Positions 4,096 through 31,666 of a stretch of 64,000 bases of DNA are shown piece after piece; positions within the stretch are counted from its first letter, which is position 1, and every line of letters starts with the position of its first letter. Under the pieces are notes generated by a model, which was not told the DNA's origin, ran no database searches, and saw nothing but the letters and a program-made list of their open reading frames with translations. The position numbers were made by a program, and so were the translations under genes. Origin of the DNA: Paludibacter sp. (GTDB lineage: Bacteria; Bacteroidota; Bacteroidia; Bacteroidales; Paludibacteraceae); assembly GCA_028710895.1 (NCBI GenBank), contig JAQTTH010000002.1, forward strand, positions 1 to 64,000. Reading direction: 5' to 3'.

Positions 4096-4131
4096 ATCCT
4101 TCTATCCTTTAATGGGTAGGGGGATTTTTTT
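4096..4131 (+). terminator. intrinsic terminator after the gene at 3097
   Basis: ATCCTTCTATCC (4096-4107) pairs with GGGTAGGGGGAT (4114-4125), with G-U pairs, across a short loop and is followed by seven T residues. The right arm is also the start of leader module copy 2. Confidence 0.75.
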
Positions 4132-11918: not shown

Positions 11919-11956
11919 TCATGCTTATGCTATACCATATTATATAATGATTAATA

Positions 11957-14136: not shown

Positions 14137-14152
14137 ATAAACACTATTATAT

Positions 14153-14527: not shown

Positions 14528-14735
14528 TATGGATGCATTTGAATTTGTAATCAATTACCCAAAGTACCTGAAAGAAATCGAAATGGTTATTAAACCCGAA
14601 TTGTTTCCAATTCTTGAAGAACTAAAAAATACTGATCCACATGATTTGGTTAGTCCGGACGTTTGGTTCGTGAGTGAAACTCAAGCAAGGGGGTACGTTT
14701 GGAGTTTGTTCCTGAATAAGCGTAAGGGAAAATAA
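14508..14735 (+). CDS. unknown small protein, last gene of the AAA+ operon
   Basis: A 75-residue protein, unrecognised. It begins inside the previous gene (20-bp overlap) and is followed by an intrinsic terminator, which closes the operon. The sequence is helical with an aromatic C-terminal part (VWFVSETQARGYVWSLFLN). No motif of known function is visible. Confidence 0.5.
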   Translation: MTKRLFDMDAFEFVINYPKYLKEIEMVIKPELFPILEELKNTDPHDLVSPDVWFVSETQARGYVWSLFLNKRKGK

Positions 14736-14785: not shown

Positions 14786-14890
14786 TTCACACTCACAATT
14801 TTGGGGTAGAGTTCAAAATGTGAGACTATTGAACTCCGAAATTGAGATTGAATTATTTAATAACACAAGAATTACTCACAATAATAGAAT
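14786..14890 (+). repeat. putative recombination site, left copy (inverted relative to 30727-30838)
   Basis: This roughly 105-bp stretch matches the reverse complement of 30727-30838. Shared blocks are TTCAAAATGTGAGACT, GAAATTGA, TATTTAATAA and GAATTACTCACAATAATAG followed by AAT. Both copies lie directly in front of a serine recombinase although the two proteins are only distantly related, so conserved DNA rather than conserved coding is the likely reason. TCACAATAATAG (14876-14887) occurs here once; the right copy has it twice. Confidence 0.7.
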
Positions 14891-14913
14891 TAAAGATGGA
14901 TAAAGCTAAAAAT

Positions 14914-15525
14914 ATGAGAAAACTGAATATTTTATACACTCGTGTTTCCACCCTGGATCAACGAACAGATCGTCAACGGGTGAATGAAAAAGACTTTGAT
15001 ATAGTTGTGGAAGATAAATGTTCGGGAGCAATTCCATTTTTTGAAAGAGAAGGTGGAAAAGAAATCTTATCATACATTGAAAAAGGAATTGTGGAAAAGA
15101 TTAGTGCAATTACTATTGACCGTTTGGGAAGAGATATGTTGGACATATTAAATACCCTAAACTACTTAAATCAAAAATTGATAACGGTTTATTTCATAAA
15201 TCAGGGAATACGGACAATTGATGAAGATGGAAAAGAGAATCCTATTTCAAAATTGATTATTTCAACTCTTGCGATTATTAGTGAAATGACCCGTAATCAA
15301 ATTCGGGAAAATCAATTGGGAGGTATTAAACTCGCAAAAGCTCGTGGAGTTTATAAAGGGAGAGTTACAGGTTCAAAAGAAGACGTTCAACAATTTCTAA
15401 GTAAACCTAAGAACAAAAAAGCACTTGAGTATCTCAAACGTGGGATGTCGATGACCGAAGCAGGGAAACTTGCAGGTGTGCATATTAATACGATGACTAA
15501 GATTAAGAAGTTGGGGATAGTGTAA
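14914..15525 (+). CDS. serine recombinase, resolvase/invertase family (left copy)
   Basis: A site-specific DNA recombinase of about 203 residues. The catalytic domain starts with LNILYTRVSTLDQ (nucleophile Ser12 from the chosen start) and includes ITIDRLGRDMLDIL and the long helix MTRNQIRENQLGGIKLAKARGVYKGR. A C-terminal helix-turn-helix (MSMTEAGKLAGVHINTMTKI) follows, as in small resolvases and DNA invertases. The frame stays open upstream to a TTG at 14842, but that part coincides with the conserved site DNA. I therefore prefer ATG 14914 (ATG 14896 is also possible). It is followed after 32 bp by a tyrosine recombinase fragment. It probably acts on the adjacent repeat site to resolve or invert DNA (inference). 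Confidence 0.88.
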   Translation: MRKLNILYTRVSTLDQRTDRQRVNEKDFDIVVEDKCSGAIPFFEREGGKEILSYIEKGIVEKISAITIDRLGRDMLDILNTLNYLNQKLITVYFINQGIRTIDEDGKENPISKLIISTLAIISEMTRNQIRENQLGGIKLAKARGVYKGRVTGSKEDVQQFLSKPKNKKALEYLKRGMSMTEAGKLAGVHINTMTKIKKLGIV

Positions 15526-15557
15526 GGGAATGATATTTCTTATTAACATACTCACTA

Positions 15558-15756
15558 GATTGTCATATGAAAATAAATCCTATTGGATTTCAACATGTAT
15601 TCGTTAGTCAGAAAAAAGGGATTTATACTACTCAACGAATCAATGTAATGCTGAAAGAAATTAAAAAAAACTATAAACTGAACATCAAGAATTTTTCAAG
15701 TCATAGTTTGAGAAAAAATTTTGGACGGGAAGTATTTAATATGAGTGGGGATAATA
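15558..15756 (+). pseudogene. tyrosine recombinase fragment (left copy)
   Basis: About 200 bp closely match 31308-31506 inside the intact tyrosine recombinase. The fragment encodes MKINPIGFQHVFVSQKKG and then HSLRKNFGREVFNMSG, so it keeps the His-x-x-Arg catalytic pair. The first catalytic Arg, the second His and the Tyr are all missing, so it cannot recombine DNA. After NMSG the frame drifts into unrelated sequence that runs to 15884. It is a remnant left by a rearrangement or an incomplete duplication next to the serine recombinase. Confidence 0.8.
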
Positions 15757-15820
15757 GTGGACTTGAACTTGGTATTGAAACTATAGAATTAATTAGAAGA
15801 GTTAGTATTCAAATTTCATC

Positions 15821-15850
15821 TTGCAGCATTGTTATTTTTTACTATTTTTG
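15821..15850 (+). promoter_or_regulatory. predicted Bacteroidota promoter for the propeller-AraC gene
   Basis: TATTTTTG (15843-15850) fits the -7 consensus TAnnTTTG, with TTG (15821-15823) 19 bp upstream as the -33 element. The ATG at 15881 lies about 30 bp further on. The promoter sits inside the frame of the tyrosine recombinase remnant. Confidence 0.5.
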
Positions 15851-15880
15851 TAGTCATTCGTACATAATCTTTTTTTTAGC

Positions 15881-18652
15881 ATGAAATTCACTAAAAAGCA
15901 GAATAGAATTGCACTATTGTTTTTGTGCCTTTTATCTTCATCTTTGATGGCTCAAATTGGCACATTTCGCAATGTAAATAATGCAGATGGCTTGCTTAAT
16001 TGGCAAATTAATTGTTTTTTCAAAGATAAAGATGGTTTTATCTGGACAGGTGCTAAAAATTTAGTTCAACGTTTTGATGGTCGTTTTATTAAGATATATG
16101 GTTTGCCTAATGGAGTAACAAAAATCAATGCAATAAATGAAGCACATGATGGAAATATTTATGTTGGCACTTCAAATGGATTATTCATAATATCCCGAAG
16201 CAATTCTACTGTAAATCAAATTTACAAGACAGAAATTTCAAAAAATATACTATCAACATGCATAGATAAGAAATATAATATTTATGTAGGAACAGAAGAT
16301 GGTCTTTTCATTATTTCTCAGGGAAAACTAAAAGCTGTACAAATACAAGATACAAATTTCCCATACAATCAGGTACTCTCAATGCATTTAGCTTCAAATG
16401 GAGTATTGTGGCTTTTAACTCCTGGTGGAATTTCATCATATACTATTGCTTCAGAGACAATACGTAATTATCCATTTTTACTGCCCTATAGAAATATCTA
16501 TTTTACTTCTATGACAGGAGTTGGACAGAACCTATACATTGGAACTGCTGGATTAGGCATTTATTCCTTCAACACCAAAAATGGTGATTTTAAAAATTAT
16601 ATAAATGTAGGAAACGATTTAATTACATGTCTCTCTACAGATGGGAAGTTGCAACTCTACATCGGCACATCAGGTACCGGAGTGTTTTTTATATCAATAC
16701 CCGATAAAAAGGTGTTACGTTCATTTGATTCTTCTCATAAGGGTGATGCATATCTTACCTCAAGCATGGTGACTACTTTGTTGGTTGACAATCAAGGAAT
16801 CCTTTGGGTGGGAAATTCGGAAGAGCTGGGATTCGACTTTATGTTTCTTTACCCTAAAGCTTTTACTTTATATAGAACTCCAAGTTTCACAACAGACAAC
16901 CTTCCGGTACATCGATTTTATATTGGGGACAACTTTAAGTTATTATCCAATAGTCACTGTATTATCTATGTGTCTGATAATAATGGAAATTCTAAGGTAT
17001 TTGAATCCGGTATTGGAAAAGCTAAGTTTCTGAGGCCAGGTAATGTGCTGTCATTCATTTCATATGACAACCAGATTATTTTAGGTGGAGAATGCGGGAT
17101 ATATAGTTTCGATCCACTCACAGCAAGTTTGAAAATATTTGAACCCATGGAATTTTTAGATAAGTCAACTATTTACAATCTTACTATAGATAAAGGAGGT
17201 AATCTATTGGTTGCATCATCAATGGGTCTACACATACTGGATAGCAAATCAAAACAGGTAAGAACCTATAATACGCTAAACTCTCATTTACTTGACGATG
17301 TAGTACGCTTTGTATATTTTGATCGTAAAGGCAGAACATGGATTTGTACCAACAAGGGAATCTGTTTCTGGGATAGTAAGGTGCGAGATTTTAAAACCGG
17401 TAAATTCCCGAAAGAATTCATTAATGATCAGCAGGTTCATTTTATGATGGAGGACAGAAATGGAAATATCCTTTTTTGTTACAATACTAATAAAGCTTTT
17501 GTTACAGATCCTTCGTTGAAAAACTTCAAAAAAATATGTACTGAGGAAGATGCTGATTTCACAGGGAATTGGATTAGTAAAGTTCTTCAGGATGCTTCCG
17601 GTACATTCTGGTTTATAGGTTCGCGTGGTGCAATAAAAGCAGATGAAGGGTTAACAACATTCAGACTCTATTCAACTACTGAAGGATTAATGGAGCCTTA
17701 CGCTACGGACGGTTGCTTTGATAAGAATGGTAAATTGTGGTTATCTAATAATAAAGGTTTATACTCATCTTCGTCTCTCTCTGGCCGTATTCAACGCTCT
17801 ACTGCCTCTATGGTGATTACAGATATCCGAATTAATGGTGCTTCAGAAATGGATGAAATGTATGATGCGATTAAAAATGGAAGCGTCATAAAACTCAGCA
17901 GATACAAAAATAATGTTGAATTCCTGTTTTCTTTACTGACTTATGATAAACCTGATTTGATGGTTTATGAATGCAAATTAAAAGGATATGATACCGATTG
18001 GCATATTCTAAGGGGTTTGAATAATTTCGATTATAAAAACCTTAAGGCCGGCGAATATACTTTTATTGTGCGACGCAATATGGATCATACATGTTTTAAA
18101 GAAGTCCATTTTGAAATCAAACCATTATTTTCGACTCTTGAAATTATAGCTATCCTATTATTGCTGAGTGGCTCAGGGTGGTTTTATTATCGTTATATCA
18201 GAGCAAAAAAACAGAAAAAATCCGAAATACTACAAAAACTTCAGGAGGATAAAGTTGGAACTGAACAAAAGTATCGATTTAATAAAATCGGTGAAAATGA
18301 GGCCAATGCAATTATATCTAAACTCAAGATATGCATGGATGAAAAGCGACTTTATTTAAATGAAGAGCTAAAAATGCCGGATTTAGCCAAAGAAGTGGGT
18401 TGTTCAAATCAAACACTTTCTCAGATCTTTAATACCTTTCTGAATGAAAATTACTATGACTTCATTAATCGATATCGGGTTGAAGAATTTAAGCGCATAA
18501 TTGCTACTACTGACTATTCCAAGCTTACCTTAAAAGCGAACGCCAAAAAAAGTGGATTCAGTTCGTATGCCTCATTTTTTAGGTCATTTAAGGAACAAAC
18601 AGGTATCACTCCAAACGAATTTATTCAGAATTTCGAATCAAAAAAATCTTGA
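15881..18652 (+). CDS. membrane-bound propeller sensor with AraC DNA-binding domain, no kinase
   Basis: A 923-residue regulator. A signal peptide (ending SSSLMAQ) is followed by about 650 residues of two-component-regulator propeller repeats (DKDGFIWTGA, DNQGILWVG, DRKGRTWIC, DKNGKLWLS and similar). A Y_Y_Y domain (YECKLKGYDTDWHILRGLNNFDY) comes next, then one membrane helix near residues 752-775. The cytoplasmic end is an AraC-type helix-turn-helix (MPDLAKEVGCSNQTLSQIF, then KSGFSSYASFFRSFKEQTGI). It has the HTCS layout but lacks the histidine kinase and receiver domains, so it would signal directly across the membrane. A sugar released by the downstream enzymes is the likely ligand (inference). 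It sits just upstream of the GH115 and GH31 genes on the same strand and ends in a hairpin terminator. Confidence 0.93.
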   Translation: MKFTKKQNRIALLFLCLLSSSLMAQIGTFRNVNNADGLLNWQINCFFKDKDGFIWTGAKNLVQRFDGRFIKIYGLPNGVTKINAINEAHDGNIYVGTSNGLFIISRSNSTVNQIYKTEISKNILSTCIDKKYNIYVGTEDGLFIISQGKLKAVQIQDTNFPYNQVLSMHLASNGVLWLLTPGGISSYTIASETIRNYPFLLPYRNIYFTSMTGVGQNLYIGTAGLGIYSFNTKNGDFKNYINVGNDLITCLSTDGKLQLYIGTSGTGVFFISIPDKKVLRSFDSSHKGDAYLTSSMVTTLLVDNQGILWVGNSEELGFDFMFLYPKAFTLYRTPSFTTDNLPVHRFYIGDNFKLLSNSHCIIYVSDNNGNSKVFESGIGKAKFLRPGNVLSFISYDNQIILGGECGIYSFDPLTASLKIFEPMEFLDKSTIYNLTIDKGGNLLVASSMGLHILDSKSKQVRTYNTLNSHLLDDVVRFVYFDRKGRTWICTNKGICFWDSKVRDFKTGKFPKEFINDQQVHFMMEDRNGNILFCYNTNKAFVTDPSLKNFKKICTEEDADFTGNWISKVLQDASGTFWFIGSRGAIKADEGLTTFRLYSTTEGLMEPYATDGCFDKNGKLWLSNNKGLYSSSSLSGRIQRSTASMVITDIRINGASEMDEMYDAIKNGSVIKLSRYKNNVEFLFSLLTYDKPDLMVYECKLKGYDTDWHILRGLNNFDYKNLKAGEYTFIVRRNMDHTCFKEVHFEIKPLFSTLEIIAILLLLSGSGWFYYRYIRAKKQKKSEILQKLQEDKVGTEQKYRFNKIGENEANAIISKLKICMDEKRLYLNEELKMPDLAKEVGCSNQTLSQIFNTFLNENYYDFINRYRVEEFKRIIATTDYSKLTLKANAKKSGFSSYASFFRSFKEQTGITPNEFIQNFESKKS

Positions 18653-18674
18653 TTTTTACCTTCTCTTATCTTCG

Positions 18675-18706
18675 GTTAGTTCTCATACGATTATTTGAGA
18701 ACTAAC
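18675..18706 (+). terminator. hairpin after the propeller-AraC gene
   Basis: GTTAGTTCTCA pairs perfectly with TGAGAACTAAC across a 10-nt loop. The T run afterwards is weak. Confidence 0.6.
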
Positions 18707-18817
18707 TGTTCTGTATTTATATATCTGTGTTAGTGATTATTGTGATAAGTTCTATCTCAAACAAACAACTGATATAAATGTGTGTTGATAAAATGAAGTG
18801 AGTTGCTTTCCATTTTA

Positions 18818-18825
18818 TAGTTTTG
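18818..18825 (+). promoter_or_regulatory. -7-like promoter box before the GH115 gene
   Basis: TAGTTTTG fits TAnnTTTG and lies 27 bp before the ATG at 18853. No good -33 element is seen at the usual distance, so this is tentative. Confidence 0.3.
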
Positions 18826-18852
18826 CATGTGTAAATAATTTATTAACCGAGA

Positions 18853-21800
18853 ATGCATTACTTTATGAGACACACCATTCACTCATTATTTTTTTCTTTA
18901 TCATTTCTATTTTTAAGTTTGGCTACTTACGCCGAACCTATTACAATAACGGAGTTAGCCGGACAAGGAAGCTTCCCTTTAGTAGCCTCCGGTAAATCGG
19001 CAACCTTAGTTGTAGACTCGTCTGATGCAGAAGTTGTAACAATTGCAGCCACAGCTTTAAGTGGCGACATTAAACTTATTACAGGCATTCAACCCGTTGT
19101 GGCCAATCAAATTGGTAACGGATTGCCGGTTATTATTGGTACGCTTGGAAAATCAAAGCTTATCGATTCTCTGGCAACTACCGGAAAGATTTCAACAGCC
19201 AATATTGTTGGCAAATGGGAAACATTTTCTTTATCAGTAGTCAGTAATCCATTTCCGGGAGTTGATAATGCACTGGTAATTTTTGGTAGTGATCCGCGCG
19301 GTACAGCTTATGGTGTTTTTGAGTTATCACGTTTAATGGGAGTATCACCTATGGTTTGGTGGGCAGATGTAACCCCTAAATCACGTTCTTCTATTTACAT
19401 TACTGCCGGAGAAAGTATTGTCGGTCCTCCTACAGTACAATACAGAGGGATTTTTATCAATGATGAAGATTGGGGATTACAGCCCTGGGCAGCCAAAACT
19501 TTTGATCCTGTAGGAGACATCGGGCCTAAAACCTACGAAAAAGTATTTGAAATGTTGTTGCGCGTAAAAGCGAATTACATTTGGCCGGCAATGCATCCAA
19601 GCACACATTCATTTAATTATTTTGCTGACAATAAAGTTGTTGCAGGCAGATATTCTATTGTTATGGGATCATCCCATCATGAACCCTTATTATACAACAC
19701 CCTAAAAGATTGGCCCTATGCTTCAAGTGCCTGGAATCCTTTCACGAATTTACCAACTATTATGACAGAACTTGAAAAAAGGGTCATCTCTAATGGTAAA
19801 TACGAGAATCTATATACTTTGTGTATGAGAGGGGCCGGAGATGGCCCAATGCCGGGAACATTGAATGAACAAACCACAAAGTTACAAGAATGTATAGGTC
19901 TGGAACGTGGCTTGTTGGCTAAATATATCAATCCGGATACAACCAAAGTTCCTCAAGTATTTTTCCCATACAAAGAAGTTTTACTTCAATATAATAATGG
20001 CTTGAAAGTGCCGGATGATGTTACATTGGGTTGGGTCGATGATAATTTTGGTTATATACGCCAGTTATCAAATCCAACTGAACAACTCCGGAGTGGTGGA
20101 AGTGGCGTATATTATCATTTTTCGTATTGGGGAGTTCCAGATGATTATTTGTGGCTATCGTCTAACTCACCTTCCTTATGTAGTTCTGAAATGTCAAAAG
20201 CGTATGCGCTCAATGCTAAGAAACTGTGGATATTTAATGTTGGGGATATAAAACCACAAGAAATGGAGCTTCAGTTTGCAATGGACTTTGCCTGGGATGT
20301 AAATGCATGGACGCCTGAAAAATCGCATCTATATTCAACACAATGGGCTGCAGAGACGTTTGGAGCTGAATTTGGAGAAAGCATTGGTCAGATTAAGCAA
20401 GAGTATTACAGATTGGCGGCATCAGGTAAACCCGAACATCTTGTTTCAATAAGCTATACATATCAGGAAATAAATCAACGCATTGCTGACTATGAGCGTT
20501 TAGTAACTGCAGCCAAAGCTGTTCAGGCTCAAATTCCAGCACGCTTGCAAGACGCCTATTTTCAATTGATTGAATATCCGGTTGAAGCTGCAGCCAATAT
20601 GAATGTAAAGATATTGTGTGCAAGACAAAGTCTTGCTTATGCGGGGCAGGGCAAACCTGAAGCACTTGATCTTTCTGCCAAAGCTATATCTGCATATGAA
20701 AATATTGTCAATCTTACTAAAAAATATAATACTGAAATAGCCGGAGGAAAATGGAATGGAATTATGGACTATGCGCCACGGGGGTTAGCTCGTTTTTATG
20801 ATCCTACAGTTGCAACTAAGGTCAATACAGACGCCCTGCCTGCTGCTTCTGTAGATTCAGTCAAGGTGATACCTGCTGCTAATTATACTACGAAAAATGA
20901 AGCTGCTTACACAATTAGCAACGTGGAAGGTTTAGGTGTTGAAAAAAGTGCGTTGTCGGTTTGGCCATTGAATATGACCACCTATACAGCCGCAAATGTT
21001 ACTTCTGCACCTTATGTTGAATATGATGTTCCTGTTGCCAAAGGAACTAACAGTATAACAGTTCGTTGTTTGCCTACTTTCCCATTGTACACAACGTTAA
21101 CTTTACGATATGCTGTTTCTGTCGACGGTTCAGCTCCTGTTTTTGTCAATATTGCAAATGCAGCTGAAACCACAGCATGGTCAAATAATTTACGAAATGG
21201 TTATGTTTTCGGGGAGAGTAAATACCAAAGTACAACTGCAAAAACAATTAAAGTTCGTGTATATTTCACCGACCCCGGCGTTGTACTAAGTGCTTTAACT
21301 GTAAGCGGAATCTATGTAAATGCATTGACAGAGCAACTTGTCAATCCCAATTTTGAATATAAATCAGCAGGTGTTCTGAATGATGGAACAACTGTCAGAG
21401 GCATTCCTTACGGTTGGAGTTCAACCGGAACGCTTCTTGGCAATTCGTATGGAATTAACAGCGATGGTTCCAACTATTCAGGAAGCAATCTTTGTTGGAT
21501 GAACTCCACTCCAATGCCAGCAAAATTCGAACTTTATCAGACCGTAAAAAACTTACCTGCCGGAGAGTATATTGTAAGATGCAGGTTGGCTGCATTTACC
21601 GGACTTTTGACCAATGTACGCTTATTTGCGAATAATTATGTTCAGTATTTTGGAAATCAGACAGATTATGTGTCTAATCTCACCACTGGCGAAACAAATA
21701 CTTTTGCGGGTTACACAGCTTCTTCAACCGCTTTGTTACAGGAAATGGCGGTGAAAGTTCCGATTTTCAAAGGAGACTCATTAAAGCTAGGTGTTCGTTC

Positions 21801-22953
21801 GAGCAATATTACAAGCAATGGTACTGCAGCAACAACGAATGCAGGGTGGTTCAAAGTAGATCATTTCCGCTTGGAATGCGTGAAACTATATTCTGATGCT
21901 ACAGCCGAAAAGTCAAGACTTGATTCTCTTATAACTGTTGCTAAAAATCTTTATACCACCACCAAGGAAGGAACCGGCAATGGTGATTATTTCGCTGCCA
22001 GTCGTCAAACTTTTGATGCGGCTATACAAACTGCAAGTGGAGTGAATCTAAATTCGAATGCAACATTACCTCAGGTTGTTACCGCTATTGCTGATTTAGA
22101 AACTGCAATTGCAGCTTATCGAAAATCGGTAATCACTTTTACTACATCATTTATTGTCAATCCTGATTTTGAATATAAATCAGCCGGTGTTTTAAATGAT
22201 AGAACAACTGTCAGAGGTATTCCTTACGGTTGGGAAATAAACGGAACCCTTATCGGTAATTCATACGGGATCAACAATGATGGTGCTAATTATAGTGGTA
22301 ATAACCTTTGTTGGATAAACTCAACACCCATGCCTTCCAAATTTGAACTTTTTCAAACAATTGGTGGTCTGCCTGCCGGAGATTATACCTTAAGATGTCG
22401 TATGGCTGCTTTTGGTGGACTTTTAGGCAATGCTCGTTTATTTGCCAACAATAATGTTCAGTATTTTGGAAATGAATCGGATTATATCTGGAATCAGACA
22501 ACAGGTGAAACAAACACATTTGCGGGTTGGACTGCAACCAGTGCCTCTTTCCTGAAAGAAATGTCTGTGAATATAACTATTAATGCAGGTGACTCATTAA
22601 AATTGGGAATTCGCTCCAGCAGTATGAAAAGTGATGGGACAGCTGCAATAGCTGATAATACTGGTTGGTTTAAAGTGGATAACTTCAGGTTAGAACAGAG
22701 ACAAACTCAAACTGCTGTAAATAATGTAGAGGATTTTGAAGTAAAAATATTTGTGCTGGACAAAGGTATTTGTGTCAGTATTAACAATTTCCCAGCTAAG
22801 GGTAATATCACTCTCTACTCCATACTTGGTGTTCAAATTTTAAATACATCCATAACAAGCAATAAGACTTACATTCAGCCTCCTTCACATGGCATATTTA
22901 TAGCAAAAGTGATGGTTAATACTAAGATTACCACTTCTAAGATTGTATTTTAA
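18853..22953 (+). CDS. GH115 alpha-glucuronidase with tandem binding modules and T9SS sorting tail
   Basis: A 1366-residue secreted enzyme expected to remove alpha-1,2-linked (4-O-methyl)glucuronic acid from xylan or arabinogalactan chains. The signal peptide is near the N-terminus (ATYAEP); ATG 18865 is an alternative start. GH115 features span about residues 30-820: FGSDPRGTAYGVFELSRLMG, VWWADVTP, YRGIFINDEDWGLQPWA (198-212), ANYIWPAMHP, GSSHHEPL and LGWVDDNFGYIRQL. Two similar modules of about 180 residues follow, one starting near residue 831 (NPNFEYKSAGVLNDGTTVRG), the other near residue 1103 (NPDFEYKSAGVLNDRTTVRG). They are joined by a helical segment and are probably carbohydrate binding. 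The last 75 residues are a T9SS sorting domain. It lies just downstream of the AraC-type sensor. Confidence 0.94.
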   Translation: MHYFMRHTIHSLFFSLSFLFLSLATYAEPITITELAGQGSFPLVASGKSATLVVDSSDAEVVTIAATALSGDIKLITGIQPVVANQIGNGLPVIIGTLGKSKLIDSLATTGKISTANIVGKWETFSLSVVSNPFPGVDNALVIFGSDPRGTAYGVFELSRLMGVSPMVWWADVTPKSRSSIYITAGESIVGPPTVQYRGIFINDEDWGLQPWAAKTFDPVGDIGPKTYEKVFEMLLRVKANYIWPAMHPSTHSFNYFADNKVVAGRYSIVMGSSHHEPLLYNTLKDWPYASSAWNPFTNLPTIMTELEKRVISNGKYENLYTLCMRGAGDGPMPGTLNEQTTKLQECIGLERGLLAKYINPDTTKVPQVFFPYKEVLLQYNNGLKVPDDVTLGWVDDNFGYIRQLSNPTEQLRSGGSGVYYHFSYWGVPDDYLWLSSNSPSLCSSEMSKAYALNAKKLWIFNVGDIKPQEMELQFAMDFAWDVNAWTPEKSHLYSTQWAAETFGAEFGESIGQIKQEYYRLAASGKPEHLVSISYTYQEINQRIADYERLVTAAKAVQAQIPARLQDAYFQLIEYPVEAAANMNVKILCARQSLAYAGQGKPEALDLSAKAISAYENIVNLTKKYNTEIAGGKWNGIMDYAPRGLARFYDPTVATKVNTDALPAASVDSVKVIPAANYTTKNEAAYTISNVEGLGVEKSALSVWPLNMTTYTAANVTSAPYVEYDVPVAKGTNSITVRCLPTFPLYTTLTLRYAVSVDGSAPVFVNIANAAETTAWSNNLRNGYVFGESKYQSTTAKTIKVRVYFTDPGVVLSALTVSGIYVNALTEQLVNPNFEYKSAGVLNDGTTVRGIPYGWSSTGTLLGNSYGINSDGSNYSGSNLCWMNSTPMPAKFELYQTVKNLPAGEYIVRCRLAAFTGLLTNVRLFANNYVQYFGNQTDYVSNLTTGETNTFAGYTASSTALLQEMAVKVPIFKGDSLKLGVRSSNITSNGTAATTNAGWFKVDHFRLECVKLYSDATAEKSRLDSLITVAKNLYTTTKEGTGNGDYFAASRQTFDAAIQTASGVNLNSNATLPQVVTAIADLETAIAAYRKSVITFTTSFIVNPDFEYKSAGVLNDRTTVRGIPYGWEINGTLIGNSYGINNDGANYSGNNLCWINSTPMPSKFELFQTIGGLPAGDYTLRCRMAAFGGLLGNARLFANNNVQYFGNESDYIWNQTTGETNTFAGWTATSASFLKEMSVNITINAGDSLKLGIRSSSMKSDGTAAIADNTGWFKVDNFRLEQRQTQTAVNNVEDFEVKIFVLDKGICVSINNFPAKGNITLYSILGVQILNTSITSNKTYIQPPSHGIFIAKVMVNTKITTSKIVF

Positions 22954-23051
22954 ATTATTGATGAATAAAAAATAACGATAAAAAAAACTTTAGTTTAAAT
23001 ATATCAAGAATAATAACACTGCTAACTAATCTAAAATGTAATTTTATTTTT

Positions 23052-24894
23052 ATGAAGACACTATTTACTTATTTTCTTGCGATCGCATTTTTTTATAACA
23101 ATTAATGCTCAAAATCAAGCTCCAGCAGCATCAACTTCCGGAACTTTAACTTTTAAAGTAACAACTGCTTCTGCAGAAACAAAAAAAAATCCTCCTATAA
23201 CACCTCGGTGGGCATTGGAACACATTGTTTGGGAAGATAGTGCAAACAATCAAATAGCCTCTCAAAAATTAGTAAGTTCATATCTGGAACATAAAATACC
23301 GGTGGGAGCTATTATCATTGACAGCCCATGGTCTACAGCTTATAATAACTTTGAGTGGGATACCAAACGTTATCCGAACTCTACGAAGATGATTCAGGGC
23401 TTTGATAAGCAGCATGTGAAAACAATATTGTGGCTGACCGGCTGTGTGAATAGTACCGGGAAAGATGTGCCAATTCAAAAAGATCCGTCATTTGATGAAG
23501 TTGTTGCTAAAAATTATGCTGTGAATAATGGCAAAACGGCAAAATGGTGGAAAGGAGAGGGATTGCATATTGATTTTACAAATCCGGCTGCTGTAAAATG
23601 GTGGAATGCTCAACTGGACAAAATACTGATAAAAGGAGTTTGTGGATTTAAAGTTGATCAGGGAGAAGTTTATTTTGGCGATACAGTCAGAACTTCCATT
23701 GGTGCTATCACGAACGTTCAATTTAGGCCTTACTATTACAACAGCATGTTTCAATACATCACCAATCGCAAGGCTGAAGGGGCTATTGTCGGAAGACCAT
23801 TCTCGCATCAGGGAGGTACAGAAGCCTCTGTGGATCAATTGAGCTTTGGTTGGTGTGGCGATTTTGAAGGGTCGTGGGATGGACTGAAGCTGCAGATCAA
23901 TAATATATACAAAAGTGCTGAATTAGGATATGGTGCTCCTGGTTGTGAAGTGGGTGGATTTTGGAAAGCTCGTTCGGGCAAAAATGAGCTGATTCGTTAC
24001 GCTCAGTTTGGTGCTATGACTGCCACCATGATTAACGGTGGCGAAAATGGCGCTTTCACTAATCACTTGCCTTGGTATCACGACGAAGAAACGGCTGCGT
24101 GTTATCGTCAGGCTACGTGGCTGCATAGTCAGTTGATATCCTACTTATTTAGTACAATAGTAATGGGACATAAAAACGGAGGGTCACTCATAAAGAATGT
24201 TTCATTCGCGAATGAAAGCCATACGCTTGGCGATTATATATTCACAAAAGCCATTACTTCAACGGCTCATACCGTAAATGTTACTTTGCCTCAAGGTGAA
24301 TGGATGGACTTTTGGACAAAAACGATTTATTCGGCCAATACAACCATTACACAAACTTATCCGCTGAATAAATTTCCTCTTTTCATGAAAGTGGGTTCTA
24401 TCATTCCGATGAATATCTCAAATAGCTATTCAGGTATTGGCGATTCAACCCTAACAGGTAAACAATCAGTTTTTATTGTTCCGGGAATCGGAGCAAGTAA
24501 ATTCCAATATTTCAGACCAACAGGCGATGGTATTGGTTATGATTCAATTCAGATTAGCTATAATAACGATGGTAAAAACAATAAAATAACGGTAGACGGT
24601 AAAACCAGTCTCCCTTATGCCTTATTGATTCAAAATTGTGCCAAACCATCCGATGTTGTTAATGCAGATAGCTGGAAATACAATGACACAACACGTGAAT
24701 TGTTAGTTTTAAAAACCGGTGACAGCTTTACAATCAATGTAAATGCAGATGCCACAAATATCTCGTCGATATATGAAACGATTATTAAGATGTATCCAAA
24801 TCCTGCGTCAAAAGAAGTTATTATCGAAAGTCCTGAAATAATTAAATCTGTTGGTATCACAAGTATCAATGGAATAGTAAATAATCTAATTTAA
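23052..24894 (+). CDS. GH31 glycoside hydrolase, frameshifted in the signal peptide and lacking its sorting tail
   Basis: About 610 residues. ATG 23052 opens MKTLFTYFLAIAFF, but in a seven-T tract (23088-23094) this frame leaves the one used by the rest of the gene and soon stops. Read with six T residues, the two join into a normal signal peptide ending TINAQ. The body is a GH31 TIM barrel: RWALEHIVWED, IIDSPWSTAYNNFEWD, ILWLTGCVN, HIDFTNPAAVKWW, nucleophile region GFKVDQGE (Asp194 counted from 23077) and acid/base region GWCGDFEG. It should cut alpha-glycosidic bonds; the substrate is unknown. The C-terminal sorting domain starts (MYPNPASKEVIIESPE) but ends early after IVNNLI, whereas the neighbour keeps about 35 more residues. 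It may therefore be neither exported nor sorted normally unless the frame is corrected. Confidence 0.85.
24058..24872 (+). repeat. near-identical segment shared by the two GH31 genes, copy 1
   Basis: About 815 bp from CTAATCACTTGCCTTGG to AGTATCAATGG match 27490-28304 with few changes, mostly silent. The GH31 coding sequence upstream of it is clearly more diverged. This points to recent gene conversion or unequal crossing-over. Confidence 0.85.
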
Positions 24895-24900
24895 AATCAA

Positions 24901-27900
24901 ATGAAAAAAATCTTCTCTTTAATCCTCCTCTGCTTTTTAGGTGTAAGCTCAATTAATTTGTATGCATACACAATAGATGTCAGTAAAACATACTTTTTAA
25001 TTCAGACGGCTACAACCTCGGGTAAAGTGGTTGGTGCGAATAGTGCTAACCAACCTGCAATTATGGATGCCGACAGAATCAACTCTCAACAACTGACTTT
25101 TGAGTTGGTTAACGTAGGTGTCTATCGAATTAAGAATGGCGATGGAAACTATTTGGCTTGGACAAGTGGGAACACATTAGCCTACAAAACATCGTCAGAT
25201 TTAACTACGTCGTGGGCAATTGCCGATGTAGGTACAACAGGATTTATTAGTCTTAAAAATGTAAGTGCCGGAAATACCTATCTGACAACAAGTGCATTAA
25301 CTGGTGAAACTCCTTTGATTGTTTCAGGCACTACAGTTCCAACAGCTGCCGGTAATAATGCGTTCAAGTTGGCTCTTGTATCTGAAATATTAAAAAACAA
25401 TATGATAGATGGTGGATTTGAAAATGCGGTGGTTAACTCAGCACCGCTGGGTACGTGGATTAATGATGTTTCCAAAGCATTTGGTGGCTCAGGAACATCT
25501 CGTATATTCAACTCATTGTCAAGCAGTGGTACTAATAGTTTTCAGCTTCGCTTTTTGGGGACGCAGGATGGAGCCGGAAATTCTTACAATAGAATCAGTC
25601 ATTTGCTGACCGGATTGAAGAAAGATTCTGTTTACACGCTAAACTTTGGTTATATTCAAAAAAACTGGGCTACTTATGCCGGAACATTTATGGTTTATGC
25701 ATCCACGGTTGCAAATGTTGCATCTGGAGTAAATTCAACGAACGTAAATGGAACAGTATTTACATCGAAACTTGCTACTGCCGACAATGTGAAAAACACA
25801 GGTTCAATCAGTTTTATTGCTCCTGCAACTTCATGTTATATTGTTTTTTCAAAAGTTTCAAATACTGTAAATAGTGAGTATTATCTTGATGATCTGGTTT
25901 TATCTACGACGAAAACACTTCCGTCCAGTATTATTCCTTCTGCTGATTCTTTAAGTATAGAGAATACACTACCAGCAACTTTTACCGTGAGTGGATTTAG
26001 CTTATCCAATGATATTACCATAGCTGCCAGTAGTGGTTTCACTGTTTCAACTAATAGATTGGCTGCCAATTCAAGCTCAACACCTATTACTGTTTACTTT
26101 ACAGGAGCAACTAAGACCACTGGCAACATAACATTAACGAGCGGTTCGATCACCCAAACTATTGCAGTGATAGGTACACCTACATTTATTCCGTTAACAA
26201 CTTCAAAGTATTACCTGACTCAAAAATCATCATACAATATAATTGGAGCTTTTTGGGGTACACAACCAGCATTATTGAAACCAAACGGTTCTACGTCACA
26301 AAAATTTAGCTTTGAATCAACAGGAGTTTCCAATGCTTATTACTTGAAAAACGATTCAAATCAATATCTTAATTGTAAAGGAACTGACAATTTATTAATC
26401 CTTGAATCAGTAACAAAATCAGATTCTTCTAAATGGGTTGTGGTAGGAACTGTATCTACAGCTTTGAAGTTCAAAAATTTGGCAACTGGAAAGTATATTA
26501 CATCTGAATATACTGAAAATGGAAGTCCTCTGATTGGCTCGGGAAATTTATCTGATGTTAATACTGTCTTCATGCTTTCAACAGAAATATTATCAAGAAG
26601 AATACCACCGTTAACACCACGATGGGCATTTGAACATGTAGTTTGGGAAGATATGACTAACACGCAGGCTTCAACGGAGAATCTGGTGAGTCTTTATTTT
26701 CAACACAATATGCCTGTAGGTGCTACAATTGTCGACAGCCCATGGTCAACGTCTTATAATAATTTTGAATGGAATACAGCACGTTACCCGAGTTCTGCTA
26801 CCATGATACAAAATTTTAAAGCTAAGAATGTAAGAGTAATACTTTGGTTAACCGGCTGTGTAAATAGTACCTCTAATGCAAGCGAAGTGCCATTTACAAA
26901 AGATCCGGGACTTGATGAAGCTATCGCTAATAATTTCGGTGTAAACAATAGTGCTATTACTACTTGGTGGAAAGGAACCGGGATACACATTGATTTTACT
27001 AAACCAGCTGCAGTAAACTGGTGGAATGCCCGACTAGATAAAGCATTCGTTGATGGTGTTTGTGGATTTAAAACAGATCAGGGCGAAGTATATTTTGGTG
27101 ATACAGTGCAGACTTCTATTGGAAAAATGTCGAATGCTGCATTCAGACCATATTATTATAACAGTATGTTCGACTATGTAACGAGTCGTAAACCAGACGA
27201 AGGTATGATAATAGGCCGTCCATATTCATATCAGGCAAATCAGGGAGGTTTCGAAGCATCTGTCGAAAAATTAACTATGGGTTGGTGTGGTGACTTTTCC
27301 GGTACATTTTCCGGACTGCAAAAACAAATATTCAATATTTTTACCAGTGCTGAAGCCGGTTATGGTGCACCGGGATGCGAAGTAGGGGGTTATTTTGAAG
27401 TTGCTCCCGGCAAAGAAGAACTGATTCGGTATGCACAGTTTGGTTCAATGACGGCCTGTATGGTAAACGGAGGATCAAACGGTGGATTGACTAATCACTT
27501 GCCTTGGTATCACGACGAAGAAACGACTTCGTATTATCGTCAGGCTGCGTGGTTGCATAGTCAGTTGATACCCTACTTATTCAGTACAGTAGTAAAGGGA
27601 CATAAAAACGGAGGGTCACTCATAAAGAATGTTTCATTTGCGAATGAAAGTCATACGCTTGGCGATTATATATTCACAAAAGCCATTACTTCAACGGCTC
27701 ATACCGTAAATGTTACTTTGCCTCAAGGTGAATGGATGGACTTTTGGACAAAAACGATTTATTCGGCCAATACAACCATTACACAAACTTATCCGCTGAA
27801 TAAATTTCCTCTTTTCATGAAAGTGGGTTCTATCATTCCGATGAATATCTCAAATAGCTATTCAGGTATTGGCGATTCAACCCTAACTGGTAAGCAATCA

Positions 27901-28440
27901 GTTTATATTGTTCCGGGAATCGGAGCAAGTAAATTCCAATATTTCAGACCAACAGGCGATGGTATTGGTTATGATTCAATTCAGATTAGCTATAATAACG
28001 ATGGTAAAACCAATAAAATAACTGTAGACGGTAAAACCAGTCTCCCCTATGCCTTATTGATTCAAAATTGTGCAAAACCATCCGATGTGGTTAATGCAGA
28101 TAGCTGGAAATACAATGACACAACGCATGAATTATTAGTTATAAAAACCGGTGACAGCTTTACAATCAATGTGAATGCAGATGCCACAAATATCTCGTCG
28201 ATATATGAAACGATTATTAAGATGTATCCAAATCCGGCGTCAAAAGAACTTATTATCGAAAGTCCTGAAACAATTACATCTGCGATTATCACAAGTATCA
28301 ATGGTAAAAAAGTTCTTGAAAAAAGATTGAATAGTACAAAAAACACAATCTCACTGAATGGACTTACTCAAGGTGTATATTTTGCATCTATAACTACTTC
28401 CTCTAAAAAAAAAATAACGAAGAAACTTGTAATTGAATAA
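24901..28440 (+). CDS. large GH31 glycoside hydrolase with lectin-like N-terminal modules and T9SS tail
   Basis: A 1179-residue secreted enzyme. After the signal peptide (ending NLYA) comes a beta-trefoil-like module (YTIDVSKTYFLIQ...YRIKNGDGNYLAW). Next is a carbohydrate-binding-like beta sandwich (MIDGGFENAVVNSAPLGTW...YLDDL), then an immunoglobulin-like part and a second trefoil-like module (YYLTQKSS...YYLKNDSNQYL). The GH31 barrel begins near residue 565 (PPLTPRWAFEHVVWED) and includes GFKTDQGE with nucleophile Asp726 and GWCGDFSG. The protein ends with a full T9SS sorting domain. Its N-terminus is closely similar to the binding protein at 28571, and its C-terminal third is nearly identical to the preceding GH31. 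It starts 6 bp after that gene, so they are probably one operon. The substrate is unknown. Confidence 0.9.
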   Translation: MKKIFSLILLCFLGVSSINLYAYTIDVSKTYFLIQTATTSGKVVGANSANQPAIMDADRINSQQLTFELVNVGVYRIKNGDGNYLAWTSGNTLAYKTSSDLTTSWAIADVGTTGFISLKNVSAGNTYLTTSALTGETPLIVSGTTVPTAAGNNAFKLALVSEILKNNMIDGGFENAVVNSAPLGTWINDVSKAFGGSGTSRIFNSLSSSGTNSFQLRFLGTQDGAGNSYNRISHLLTGLKKDSVYTLNFGYIQKNWATYAGTFMVYASTVANVASGVNSTNVNGTVFTSKLATADNVKNTGSISFIAPATSCYIVFSKVSNTVNSEYYLDDLVLSTTKTLPSSIIPSADSLSIENTLPATFTVSGFSLSNDITIAASSGFTVSTNRLAANSSSTPITVYFTGATKTTGNITLTSGSITQTIAVIGTPTFIPLTTSKYYLTQKSSYNIIGAFWGTQPALLKPNGSTSQKFSFESTGVSNAYYLKNDSNQYLNCKGTDNLLILESVTKSDSSKWVVVGTVSTALKFKNLATGKYITSEYTENGSPLIGSGNLSDVNTVFMLSTEILSRRIPPLTPRWAFEHVVWEDMTNTQASTENLVSLYFQHNMPVGATIVDSPWSTSYNNFEWNTARYPSSATMIQNFKAKNVRVILWLTGCVNSTSNASEVPFTKDPGLDEAIANNFGVNNSAITTWWKGTGIHIDFTKPAAVNWWNARLDKAFVDGVCGFKTDQGEVYFGDTVQTSIGKMSNAAFRPYYYNSMFDYVTSRKPDEGMIIGRPYSYQANQGGFEASVEKLTMGWCGDFSGTFSGLQKQIFNIFTSAEAGYGAPGCEVGGYFEVAPGKEELIRYAQFGSMTACMVNGGSNGGLTNHLPWYHDEETTSYYRQAAWLHSQLIPYLFSTVVKGHKNGGSLIKNVSFANESHTLGDYIFTKAITSTAHTVNVTLPQGEWMDFWTKTIYSANTTITQTYPLNKFPLFMKVGSIIPMNISNSYSGIGDSTLTGKQSVYIVPGIGASKFQYFRPTGDGIGYDSIQISYNNDGKTNKITVDGKTSLPYALLIQNCAKPSDVVNADSWKYNDTTHELLVIKTGDSFTINVNADATNISSIYETIIKMYPNPASKELIIESPETITSAIITSINGKKVLEKRLNSTKNTISLNGLTQGVYFASITTSSKKKITKKLVIE
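27490..28304 (+). repeat. near-identical segment shared by the two GH31 genes, copy 2
   Basis: Partner of 24058-24872. Beyond its right end this copy continues into an intact sorting domain, while copy 1 runs into DNA that matches the leader at 28547-28570. Confidence 0.85.
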
Positions 28441-28487
28441 ATGATTATTCTGTTCAGAGGCATAAATCCTCTGAACAGAATAATCAT
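28441..28487 (+). terminator. long hairpin after the second GH31 gene
   Basis: A perfect 20-bp stem (arms 28441-28460 and 28468-28487) with a 7-nt loop starts at the base after the stop codon. No T run follows directly, so it may act as an mRNA 3' stabiliser as well as a terminator. Confidence 0.65.
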
Positions 28488-28570
28488 CGACGAAAATCTT
28501 ATTAAAATCAATCTATTAGTGAAATACAATGTTAACTTTCTATTATTAATAATCTAATTCAAAAAATCAA

Positions 28571-29863
28571 ATGAAAAAAATCTTCTCTTTAATCATCCTC
28601 TGCTTTTTAGCTGTTAGTTCAATGAATTTGTATGCATACACCATTGATGTAACAAAAACGTATTTACTGGAACAAACACTTGCTACTTCCAGTAAAGTAA
28701 TAGGTGCTAATGGAACAGCACCTTCAGTTATGAGTGCTGATATCTCGGCAACTTCACAACGGTTAAGTTTTGAACTTGTGAGTACTGGTATTTACCAAAT
28801 TAAAAATGGAGATGGCAATTATCTGACCTGTAATAGTTCCGGACTTATTGCCTATTCAGCTTCTTTGGACGCAACAACTGACGCTCAATGGACTCTTACT
28901 GATATTGGTACCACAGGACTTGTTTCAGTGAAAAGTGTAAGCTTACCTACCAGTTATTTAACCTCGGCTGCTGTAATTACCGGCCCAGCTGCTTTTGCAG
29001 GTAGCCCGCTAACACTGACTACTACAGCTCCAACAGCAGCTGGGGCAACAGCATTTAAACTTGTAGAGGCTGTAACCGGTACTTATCCATGTTTTACCAA
29101 CTTGTTAGTTGATGGACGTTTTGAGAATGTAGCTGCCAATGGTGCCCCACTGGGTGAGTGGATTAATGATAAATCCCAAACAATGGGAGGCTCAGGCAAA
29201 TCTCGGGTTTTTGGTTCTAATGCAACTACTGGCACTAATAGTTTTCAGTTGCGCTTCAATCTACCTACCGGTTCAAATTACGGATATTACAACATTAGTC
29301 ATAAGTTAACCGGACTTACAGTGGGTAAAACGTATCGTTTTAGTTTCAAATACAAAGTTGATGGTGCAGCAAGTGCAATTCCGGTAGCAAATGCGAAAGC
29401 AAATGTTTTTGCAGCAACCTCTGTAAATGATGTTGTAGCAAATGCTATTGGAGGAGCTACTAATTATATAACTACAGAAGTGCCAACAGTTCTTCTTACC
29501 AGCCAATCAAGCCTAACCAGTAACTATCTAACGTTTGTAGCTCCGGCTTCAAGTTGTTATCTTGTTTTTTCTAAATTTATTCAGGACGATACAACCATAT
29601 TTTATATTTATATGGATGATATGATGTTGGAAGATGTGACCACAACAACTGGATTAATGAATTTGAGCAACAAAAATCTTAATGTATTTGTGCAAAACAA
29701 TAGATTAAATGTATCGGGAGTAAAGAACTATACAGTTTATAATATTCAAGGGATAAAAGTAGCTGAGGTGTTGAATAACACGGTTAATACATCGGTTGGT
29801 TTGAAGGCAGGTGTGTATGTTGTAAAATCAAATAAGGAAATTCAGAAAATTATTATCCAATAA
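28571..29863 (+). CDS. secreted carbohydrate-binding-like protein without catalytic domain, T9SS tail
   Basis: A 430-residue protein. Signal peptide, trefoil-like module and beta-sandwich module match the N-terminal third of the GH31 at 24901 (YTIDVTKTYLLEQ, YQIKNGDGNYLT, LVDGRFENVAANGAPLGEW, YLVFSKF, YMDD). A T9SS sorting domain follows directly (NLNVFVQNNRLNVSGVKNY...GVYVVKSNKEIQKIIIQ). There is no glycosidase domain, so it probably binds the same substrate on the cell surface. The start is chosen by identity with the 24901 leader and first codons. The leader just upstream (AATAATCTAATT) is the sequence that forms the broken end of the first GH31 gene. Confidence 0.85.
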   Translation: MKKIFSLIILCFLAVSSMNLYAYTIDVTKTYLLEQTLATSSKVIGANGTAPSVMSADISATSQRLSFELVSTGIYQIKNGDGNYLTCNSSGLIAYSASLDATTDAQWTLTDIGTTGLVSVKSVSLPTSYLTSAAVITGPAAFAGSPLTLTTTAPTAAGATAFKLVEAVTGTYPCFTNLLVDGRFENVAANGAPLGEWINDKSQTMGGSGKSRVFGSNATTGTNSFQLRFNLPTGSNYGYYNISHKLTGLTVGKTYRFSFKYKVDGAASAIPVANAKANVFAATSVNDVVANAIGGATNYITTEVPTVLLTSQSSLTSNYLTFVAPASSCYLVFSKFIQDDTTIFYIYMDDMMLEDVTTTTGLMNLSNKNLNVFVQNNRLNVSGVKNYTVYNIQGIKVAEVLNNTVNTSVGLKAGVYVVKSNKEIQKIIIQ

Positions 29864-29942
29864 TTTTCTGAATTAACATCATGCTTATTTGATTAATTAT
29901 CTCTAATAAAATAATTATTAGATAGTTTCGCAATTTTTTTTG

Positions 29943-29972
29943 CTCCTCCTTCTCCATTTGGAGAGGGGGGAG
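29943..29972. repeat. G/C-rich intergenic hairpin
   Basis: CTCCTCCTTCTCC pairs with GGAGAGGGGGGAG around ATTT. It resembles the dispersed C/G-rich intergenic hairpins common in Bacteroidota. The rest of 29864-30124 shows nothing else. Confidence 0.5.
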
Positions 29973-30124
29973 TTCTACACTTTTAGAAGAAATGGTGGAA
30001 TTATCTCCATTGCAGATTTTTGAGCGTGAAATACAAGTTGGTAATGTTATTTTGGAACATAACAAATATTTAATCTCCCTGATGTTCTTTTTTGAACTTC
30101 GGGGTGTTTTTATTTGGGGGAGGA

Positions 30125-30712
30125 TTATTTGATTTGGTCTAAATATGATTCAATCGACTTAAAGTTTCCGGCTTGTTCATCAAATGACTTTCTTTTCTTT
30201 GCTTCTCGAAGAATGTATCCTGATTTCTTTCTTGACTTGGAATCTTTAGAACCAACCGGACGACCAAGTTTCTTTTCAGGATTTTTCGCTCTCACTCTTG
30301 CAAGTCCATCTTTCGTTCTTTGAGATATGAGTGATCTCTCAAATTCCGCAAATGCACTCAATATTTGAAATTGTAATCTTCCAGCTGCTGAACTGAAATC
30401 AAGGTTATCTGTTAGAGAAATAAATCCAATTCCTTTATCAACCAATTCTTTTGTATCAAGAATCAACTCTGTAGAAGAACGAGCCCAACGGTCTAATTTA
30501 TATATAATCACGGACTCATATTCAAAGTTACGAAGTTTCATAAGCAATGCTTGTTTTACCGGTCTTGTTTTCCGGGTGGATTCTTCTTCCTCGAAAATAT
30601 CATATTCAAGATTATTTCGCTTAGCAAAATCAACGAGTATAATCTTTTGATTTTCTACAGTCTGTCTACCATCGGTAGAAGATACCCTTACATATAGTGC
30701 TACTTTCTTCAT
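30125..30712 (-). CDS. serine recombinase, resolvase/invertase family (right copy)
   Basis: About 195 residues from ATG 30712 (ATG 30724 is also possible; the frame is open up to TTG 30784 within the conserved site DNA). The catalytic domain starts VALYVRVSSTDGRQ (nucleophile Ser11), followed by YKLDRWARSSTELI and the helix LSAFAEFERSLISQRTKDGL. A short basic C-terminal part (LGRPVGSKDSKSRKKSG) would bind DNA. It is a different subfamily from the left serine recombinase, yet both share their upstream DNA. It is divergent from the tyrosine recombinase at 31044. Confidence 0.88.
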   Translation of the reverse strand: MKKVALYVRVSSTDGRQTVENQKIILVDFAKRNNLEYDIFEEEESTRKTRPVKQALLMKLRNFEYESVIIYKLDRWARSSTELILDTKELVDKGIGFISLTDNLDFSSAAGRLQFQILSAFAEFERSLISQRTKDGLARVRAKNPEKKLGRPVGSKDSKSRKKSGYILREAKKRKSFDEQAGNFKSIESYLDQIK

Positions 30713-30726
30713 ATTTATATTCATTA

Positions 30727-30838
30727 GTATTATTGATTCTATTATTGTGAGTAATTCATTTATTATTAAATATTTCAACTTCAATTTCTGGGTTCATCAG
30801 TCTCACATTTTGAACTACCCTATTATTGTGAATGCGAG
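30727..30838 (-). repeat. putative recombination site, right copy (inverted relative to 14786-14890)
   Basis: Reverse complement of the left site with the same block order. The dodecamer CTATTATTGTGA occurs twice in direct orientation, at 30739-30750 and 30820-30831 (81 bp apart), as expected for binding subsites of a serine recombinase. Confidence 0.7.
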
Positions 30839-30881
30839 AGTAAAATAAAAAGGAGTTGTTGCTCCTTTTTATTTTACTCTC
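30836..30881. terminator. long bidirectional hairpin between the two recombinase genes
   Basis: A perfect 20-bp stem (arms 30836-30855 and 30862-30881) with loop TTGTTG. Its AGGAG/CTCCT core is flanked by A and T runs, so it would terminate transcription in both directions. It may also insulate the divergent recombinases. Confidence 0.7.
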
Positions 30882-30887
30882 ATCAAA

Positions 30888-31007
30888 AAACATTCACTTA
30901 TCATAAAAGTGAGCGTTGTGAAGATAATCAATGACTTATATAAAAATCTGAATAAATATAAAAATCAAACATTCACTTATGATATTTCCGAATGTAAGTG
31001 AATGTTT
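30888..31007. promoter_or_regulatory. three copies of AAACATTCACTTA before the tyrosine recombinase
   Basis: AAACATTCACTTA occurs at 30888-30900 and 30967-30979, and inverted (TAAGTGAATGTTT) at 30995-31007. The last pair forms a perfect 13-bp inverted repeat with a 15-bp spacer, 36 bp before the ATG of the tyrosine recombinase. Likely roles are the core attachment site with its flanking recombinase-binding arms, or an operator (inference). Confidence 0.55.
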
Positions 31008-31043
31008 AACAACCAATAAATATAAACATAAAACAACTATATT

Positions 31044-31628: not shown

Positions 31629-31638
31629 TAATATTCTT

Positions 31639-31666
31639 CCCCCAAATAATTTGGGGGATTTTTTTG
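31639..31666 (+). terminator. intrinsic terminator after the tyrosine recombinase
   Basis: CCCCCAAA pairs with TTTGGGGG around TAA, followed by GA and a long T run. Confidence 0.85.

Follow-up and report, generated by a model that had tools for sequence, protein, structure and literature searches.

Inverted res-type sites of two related serine-recombinase modules on either side of a glycoside-hydrolase locus in Paludibacter

The stretch of DNA under study, hereafter the window, comprises 64,000 nucleotides (nt) of a Paludibacter sp. genome (assembly GCA_028710895.1, contig JAQTTH010000002.1, positions 1 to 64,000 of the forward strand) and contains a glycoside-hydrolase (GH) locus that lies between two inverted copies of a sequence of about 105 bp, each placed before a gene for a small serine recombinase. 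A first-pass annotation had taken this arrangement for a sugar-use cassette that could be inverted or mobilised. The left and right copies are here called L and R, and the recombinase genes beside them recA and recB; these two gene names, like p361, p171 and SWG further on, are working labels given in this analysis only. Contigs C106, C18 and C22 all belong to G028, a genome of the same genus.

The paired sites and the locus between them

Without gaps, positions 14810-14893 and 30733-30816 form an inverted pair of 84 nt that is 87% complementary, and when gaps are allowed L and R are 80.8% identical over 120 positions (E about 1e-26). In the whole genome of 4.9 Mb, just these two sequences matched at E<=0.001 among the 36 candidates scored, and the crossover-site pattern of the left type, with up to three mismatches, was found in the left copy only. 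Directly downstream of each copy is a gene whose product matches the resolvase catalytic domain PF00239 (6.7e-22 left, 6.2e-32 right) and falls within the class of about 180-210 amino acids, while the two proteins are only weakly alike. Two inverted repeats that occur nowhere else in the genome, 81-87% alike and each directly before a serine recombinase of a different kind, are real, as the first-pass annotation had described them; they are recombination-type sites, and it is only the functional parts that lie slightly shifted from where the repeats had been drawn.

The gene recA (14914-15525, plus strand, with ATG 14914 as likely start) encodes a Sin-like recombinase of 203 amino acids, which is 82% identical to its relative in genome G014 and 85% to the one on C106. 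Of all solved structures, it is matched best by 2r0q (residues 6-198, 6.6e-17), which is listed as Tn552 DNA-invertase bin3 and which we take to be the structure of Sin; further entries follow, three of them listed as bin3 or Sin. The gene recB (30125-30712, minus strand) encodes 195 amino acids, has a DNA invertase, 4m6f, as its best solved match (8.4e-19) and sits at the start codon of a res site of the recA type. Such a site is lacking in all three near-complete relatives of recB that were inspected (66-70% identical, site scores of 29-34 on the scale used below). Among viral contigs, there was no confirmed match to recA, no match to the exact pattern of the crossover site, and two remote matches only to recB (33% and 29%).

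Each copy has the design of a resolvase site, in which an inverted-repeat crossover site of 31-33 bp (site I) is followed by an accessory site of 44 bp (site II) that reaches the start codon, so that the full site, with one crossover and one accessory site, takes up about 126 bp. Site I of L (14792-14824, plus strand) reads CTCACAATTTTGGGGT-AG-AGTTCAAAATGTGAG, where AG at 14808-14809 is the overlap dinucleotide predicted by comparison with relatives. Site II of L (14875-14918, plus strand) is an inverted repeat whose arms begin 28 bp from each other, and overlaps the likely start codon of recA. On the minus strand, site I of R (30802-30832) measures 31 bp, its core being 2 bp shorter than in L and in the sites on C18 and C106, which leaves its arms 15 apart instead of 17; relatives that score above 37 have spacings of 16 to 18. 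Site II of R (30708-30751) has a left arm identical to that of L (16/16) and a poorly kept right arm that agrees with the consensus in 8 of 16 positions. Judged from the sequence, the 2-bp core of site I would be the position of strand exchange. Hairpins before both res sites were seen by eye, and the pattern scans do not list them as terminator-like.

The GH locus itself occupies 15881-29863 on the plus strand and consists of a propeller/AraC regulator (15881-18652), a GH115 gene (18853-22953), two GH31 genes (23077-24894 and 24901-28440) and a gene for a protein of 430 amino acids (28571-29863). The regulator, the GH115 and the GH31 pair had been named correctly before, and the label of binding protein for the last gene finds no support in Pfam, where this protein has no family. 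GH115 relatives occur in 20 of 48 genomes of the genus, the own one included, and the closest of them, on C22, is 77% identical and is found together with its regulator (57%); no recombinase match was seen among the genes called in the 40 kb surrounding it. When the second GH31 was used as query at E<=1e-120, it was found in the own genome only, 1 of the 48 (at most 14 candidates scored per genome), from which it follows that this gene is accessory. The guanine-plus-cytosine (GC) content is 26-32% in the left element, rises to 34-41% across the sugar locus, drops to 31% at 30-32 kb and amounts to 33-40% in the polysaccharide genes farther to the right.

Just after recA lies a truncated tyrosine-recombinase fragment (15558-15770, plus strand), absent from the first-pass annotation, which is 84% identical in DNA to 31308-31520. 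Its reading frame (15567-15884) overlaps the start of the sugar-locus regulator by four bases. Since none of the terminators listed by the scan for the plus strand falls between recA and the regulator, transcription of recA could, with this overlap, read into the regulator.

Occurrence of the site and of its element in other genomes

When recA and its G014 relative were used in a pattern scan over the GTDB genome collection, 27 loci were confirmed, all listed under Bacteroidota and spanning 3-21 kb each. Most of these relatives have upstream a two-part site with a site I of the type CTCACAATTTTAGGGT-NN-..TTAAAATTGTGAG and a wider site II that reaches the start codon. When all spacings were tested over 29 sites, the best geometry placed the arms of site I 17 apart, site II 82 away and the arms of site II 28 apart, with a sum of 1105 against a median of 825 over the spacings tested. 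Twenty of the 27 relatives scored above all 540 shuffled controls, the maximum of which was 37. Because the consensus had been derived from the scored sites themselves, a scan of whole loci was added, in which both strands of the 27 relatives and of the G014 and G028 pieces were searched (451 kb, G014 counted twice) at a threshold of at least 42. Such scores, reached by 13 of the 27 relatives, occurred only before recombinases, and no second copy of the site reached them in any of the 27 loci or in the two G028 elements. Self-comparison of the 27 loci gave short matches only.

The core was examined in 17 chosen sites, namely 14 relatives with spacing 17, the left site of the window and the two G028 sites (L064, L066 and L071 were left out despite a spacing of 17). 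A T precedes the core in all 17, and the middle dinucleotide is AG in six, AT in five, GT in three, AC in two and AA in one. Among eight other genomes with a DNA match to the site, only G014 held; the weak matches in G135, G017, G044, G183, G046, G113 and G088 contained no site on inspection. Several points weigh against so uniform a picture: seven of the 27 relatives (L063, L067, L069, L070, L072, L073 and L074) scored within the range of the shuffles, the sequences used to fit the half-site consensus and the spacings were also the ones scored, and of eight plasmid records with distant homologues of recA (32-36% identity) the four that were examined did not contain the site.

The genes that precede L belong to an element that recurs in the genus. 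In the window, p361, p171, an AAA ATPase, the SWG gene and a small open reading frame (14508-14735) follow each other at 10833-14735 on the plus strand, and genes of these kinds precede a module of res site and recombinase here and twice in G028. On C106 the order is p361 (61%), p171 (71%), AAA ATPase (35%), SWG (63%), small reading frame, hairpin, res and recA (85%), the same order as in the window between 10833 and 15525, and after recA comes another regulator that by eye is of the propeller type. On C18 the same kinds of genes are followed by res, by recB (91% identical over 120 residues in frame, with an interrupted start region) and then by 99 bp that match window positions 31630-31727. 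In G015 a short tyrosine recombinase stands between the SWG gene and the small reading frame. With res-recA on C106, res-recB on C18 and a tyrosine recombinase in G015, the recombinase modules at the element end are exchanged as units. It was also considered whether C18 could be a flipped form of the window, and this was ruled out: G028 holds res-recA and res-recB as separate elements, and thus displays two module types and not a flip.

Relatives of the AAA ATPase are present in 12 of the 48 genus genomes, the own included, and of 13 further loci with such a gene only that on C106 has the neighbours of the element, with a weak p361 match of 22% at L116. The ATPase gene of the window (12469-14136) gives hits to the IetA and TRIP13 defence models, through its ATPase part only, and its genus relatives are scattered among other genes.

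To the right of R, the recB module and a tyrosine-recombinase module are joined head to head by a perfect inverted repeat of 20 bp with a 6-nt loop (30836-30881). As single-stranded DNA, 30820-30900 folds with a z-score of -8.95. By eye, the equivalent contiguous pairing on C18 amounts to 6 bp only, and for this reason the palindrome of the window looks like a fold-back or inversion junction. Just outside R is the gene for a short tyrosine recombinase of 194 amino acids (31044-31628, plus strand), likewise absent from the first-pass annotation; several of its relatives adjoin the same small SWG gene. It is followed on the plus strand at 31630-31727 by an element-end sequence, made up of a hairpin (31638-31658), which the terminator pattern scan lists as terminator-like, and CTAAATAA-N8-TTATTTGG; this sequence is 86% identical to the stretch right after recB on C18. 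The end motif occurs at five other places in the own genome, a number that in kind does not rise above a backward control (6 versus 4). Taken together, recB, the tyrosine recombinase and the element end would form a rearranged remnant.

Upstream of the short tyrosine recombinases a two-part motif was seen by eye in 8 of 12 regions (window 30870-31043, L032, L033, L034, L035, L037, L079 and L080): TTCACTT with a nearby inverted copy some 130 bp upstream, and CATTCACT..AAA.TGAA immediately ahead of the start. This may be a second kind of recombination site.

Two further observations concern the far left of the window. Three direct repeats at 950-1305, about 156 nt apart (CGGAACATATA..GATATAAATAT), precede a gene for a protein of 468 amino acids (1354-2760), and a related triple repeat precedes its homologue (71-74% identical) on C18, an arrangement that resembles iterons ahead of a gene for replication. 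Two stretches of the protein, FDITSSF and HDALY, recall by eye motifs that we associate with family A polymerases, an assumption without backing from protein families, the PDB or a predicted structure. For the protein, plasmids gave no match, viral contigs no confirmed one and the PDB none, and the structure prediction was useless, with a mean predicted local distance difference test (pLDDT) value of 29. An intergenic stretch of about 277 bp, of which 35 bp are identical, is duplicated before two neighbouring genes (2806-3082 and 4120-4397).

The mosaic right site and the origin of the pair

When R is read from its upstream side, it is of the recB type up to the core of site I, continues with sequence like L as far as site II and then returns to the recB type. 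The tract of left-site sequence covers 30735-30816 (minus strand) and has its edges at the core of site I and at the inner edge of the left arm of site II. Along the upstream region, the left and right arms of site I, the spacer and the left and right parts of site II, L and R are identical in 19/39, 12/16, 15/17, 40/50, 16/16 and 14/26 positions, R and the C18 site in 26/34, 15/16, 8/17, 21/50, 12/16 and 14/26, and L and the C106 site in 29/39, 15/16, 14/17, 28/50, 15/16 and 25/26. In an alignment of L, R, the two G028 sites and the G014 site (L041), R changes from C18-like to L-like at columns 80-89, with the core within them, and back at columns 165-171; 57 of 66 informative columns fit this division, and none of 5000 permutations equalled it. 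In a second triplet, with L compared to R and C106, 46 of 50 columns fit, with edges at 80-81 and 159-168 (0/5000). Over four alignment settings the upstream edge kept its place relative to the core (0/1000 permutations each). The downstream edge was the same in three of them and came about 8 columns later in the fourth, a shift that is likely due to gap columns, since a control edge moved there by as much.

The four control triplets also hold points against this reading. That in which L041 is placed between L and C106 clusters too (17, 4, 0 and 46 of 1000), although its edges do not fall at the core. The other three gave 27 to 775 of 1000. One of these, in which L is placed between L041 and C106, is not significant (473, 338, 237 and 775) and shares the edge at 80-81 in three alignments, which implies that this edge of the second triplet rests on few columns. 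In the available sequences the exchange would have been one-way, for L shows no such change.

The repeats are probably res-type sites of two related terminal modules from one AT-rich mobile-element family of Bacteroidota, with the sugar locus as a bystander or passive capture, and they do not resemble a functional switch that would flip the sugar genes. The left module, L with the Sin-like recA, would end the element that fills the left of the window, and the right module, R with recB, would belong to the remnant described above; the pair would then arise because the sugar locus has this remnant of a second module on its far side. A single res beside a recombinase on a mobile element suggests that the native task of such a module is to resolve direct repeats of the element, be they multimers or cointegrates. 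The GC content groups the right recombinase piece with the left element, and the sugar locus with the genes to its right. There are, on the other side, only two known modules with res and recB, those of the window and of C18, and in G028 recB is interrupted. Moreover, C18 has a GH115 gene (L105, L106; about C18 31629-35279) that is 57% identical to that of the window and is placed beyond the other flank of that element, some 10 kb from the homologue of the 468-amino-acid gene, so that the element family is found near GH115 twice, on opposite sides, and this nearness may not be due to chance. The element end at 31630-31727 also fits a sugar locus placed inside one element.

That recA, recB or both flip the 16 kb between the sites, as the first-pass annotation had proposed, is very unlikely. 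The sites are indeed inverted, each with a recombinase, recB resembles an invertase and R carries left-site sequence that begins at the core. But the core of R has lost 2 bp, so that one of the two crossover sites is not intact, the right arm of its site II is degraded, and a hybrid junction, such as a single flip leaves behind, is missing, L being of the recA type on both sides of its core. According to PMC9943657, the reaction of Tn3 res sites is slowed by a factor of about 1000 or more, relative to direct repeats, when the sites are inverted or lie on different molecules, and this, together with the shortened core, makes a present-day flip unlikely. No promoter or reading frame would obviously be switched either, as the locus would be moved in its entirety. 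Nor does the arrangement imply mobilisation, because excision takes directly repeated sites and inverted ones can invert but not excise. In the relatives examined, the site stands before a serine recombinase with no cassette and never in a pair, which is one of the two observations that, taken together, the first-pass annotation had itself named as speaking against its proposal; sites that belong to modules occurring singly, in the loci of the 27 relatives and in two G028 elements, do not mark a dedicated cassette boundary. A dedicated invertible or excisable cassette was accordingly rejected on the grounds of inverted sites, damaged right core and single sites in relatives. Rather unlikely, too, is a single element that takes in the left of the window, reaches to about 31727 and carries the GH genes as cargo, inserted between the small reading frame and the end. 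It would account for the match of 31630-31727 to the end right after recB on C18, of which the recB of the window by eye keeps the first bases, and for the restriction of the second GH31 to the own genome within the limits of that search. It does not agree with the GC content of the sugar locus, which is like that of the genes to the right and not like that of the element, nor with the GH115 relative and regulator on C22, which have no recombinase hit among the genes called in the surrounding 40 kb. No empty site was found, near orthologues for the right flank being absent as well (best 53% in another genome), and the left end of the element is beyond the end of the contig.

For R as one of two related module sites, the mosaic raises a further choice. 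Its likeness to L may be due to shared descent or to ordinary homologous gene conversion with no part played by a recombinase, a possible explanation but one that we regard as doubtful. Conversion between inverted repeats is common, the two sites are related and one control triplet is also patchy. However, the likeness of L and R rises from the upstream region to the spacer, changes at the core and falls again in the right part of site II, unlike the likeness of L and C106. The spacer of C18 is identical to those of the other four sites in only 18-22 of 49-50 positions, and if the parental recB spacer was C18-like there was little identity for homologous pairing. The most interesting reading is a past exchange that began at the crossover point of R, with L or another L-like site as donor, and a single event in a single genome cannot prove it. 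R would once have been cut at the core of site I, have lost the 2-bp overlap and have been filled in from L or a near copy, which would leave it ill suited for efficient recombination. We consider it tentative, and on balance unlikely, that R is in this sense the fossil of a resolvase acting over 16 kb on an inverted partner, with the cut aborted, the overlap lost and the break filled from L up to site II. If it were so, resolvase modules would remodel one another's sites and trade recombinase genes at the start codon, and it would be understandable that a single res design is used by a Sin-like enzyme in one module and by an invertase-like one in another.

Relation to known systems

In the available literature on Bacteroidota resolvases, invertible polysaccharide loci, inverted res sites and core-site conversion, no description of this site family was found. 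What appears to be new is a two-site res with an inverted site II, along with a notable, if unproven, scar of exchange. With it, a family of Sin-like recombinases that occurs across Bacteroidota gains a defined site, whose fixed geometry allows it to be identified from raw sequence, and one family of elements is seen to swap the recombinase modules at its end. An over-reading is corrected as well, in that a pair of inverted sites on either side of a sugar locus does not in itself make an invertible cassette.

Both recombinases match the model for the Mpi-type invertases of Bacteroides weakly, with 43.3 and 67.9 bits against a cut-off of 272, and between the sites lies a long and complete locus, not a promoter as we take to be the case for Mpi. 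The likeness to Sin lies both in the structure match of recA and in the placing of one crossover and one accessory site upstream of a recombinase of about 200 amino acids. According to PMC2428073, the res of Sin measures 86 bp and has a direct repeat as site II. In contrast to Sin, as described there and in PMC9943657, site II is here an inverted repeat with arms 28 apart, and the full site of about 126 bp overlaps the start codon. With the res of Tn3 and gamma-delta the present sites share the resolvase catalytic domain of their enzymes and an inverted-repeat site I with a short core; they differ in that Tn3 res has 114 bp and three dimer sites, according to PMC9943657, whereas two sites are recognised here. 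If the exchange at the core of R was real, it would be natural evidence that inverted sites in genomes can be substrates of resolvases, in spite of the topological filter that is seen in the laboratory.

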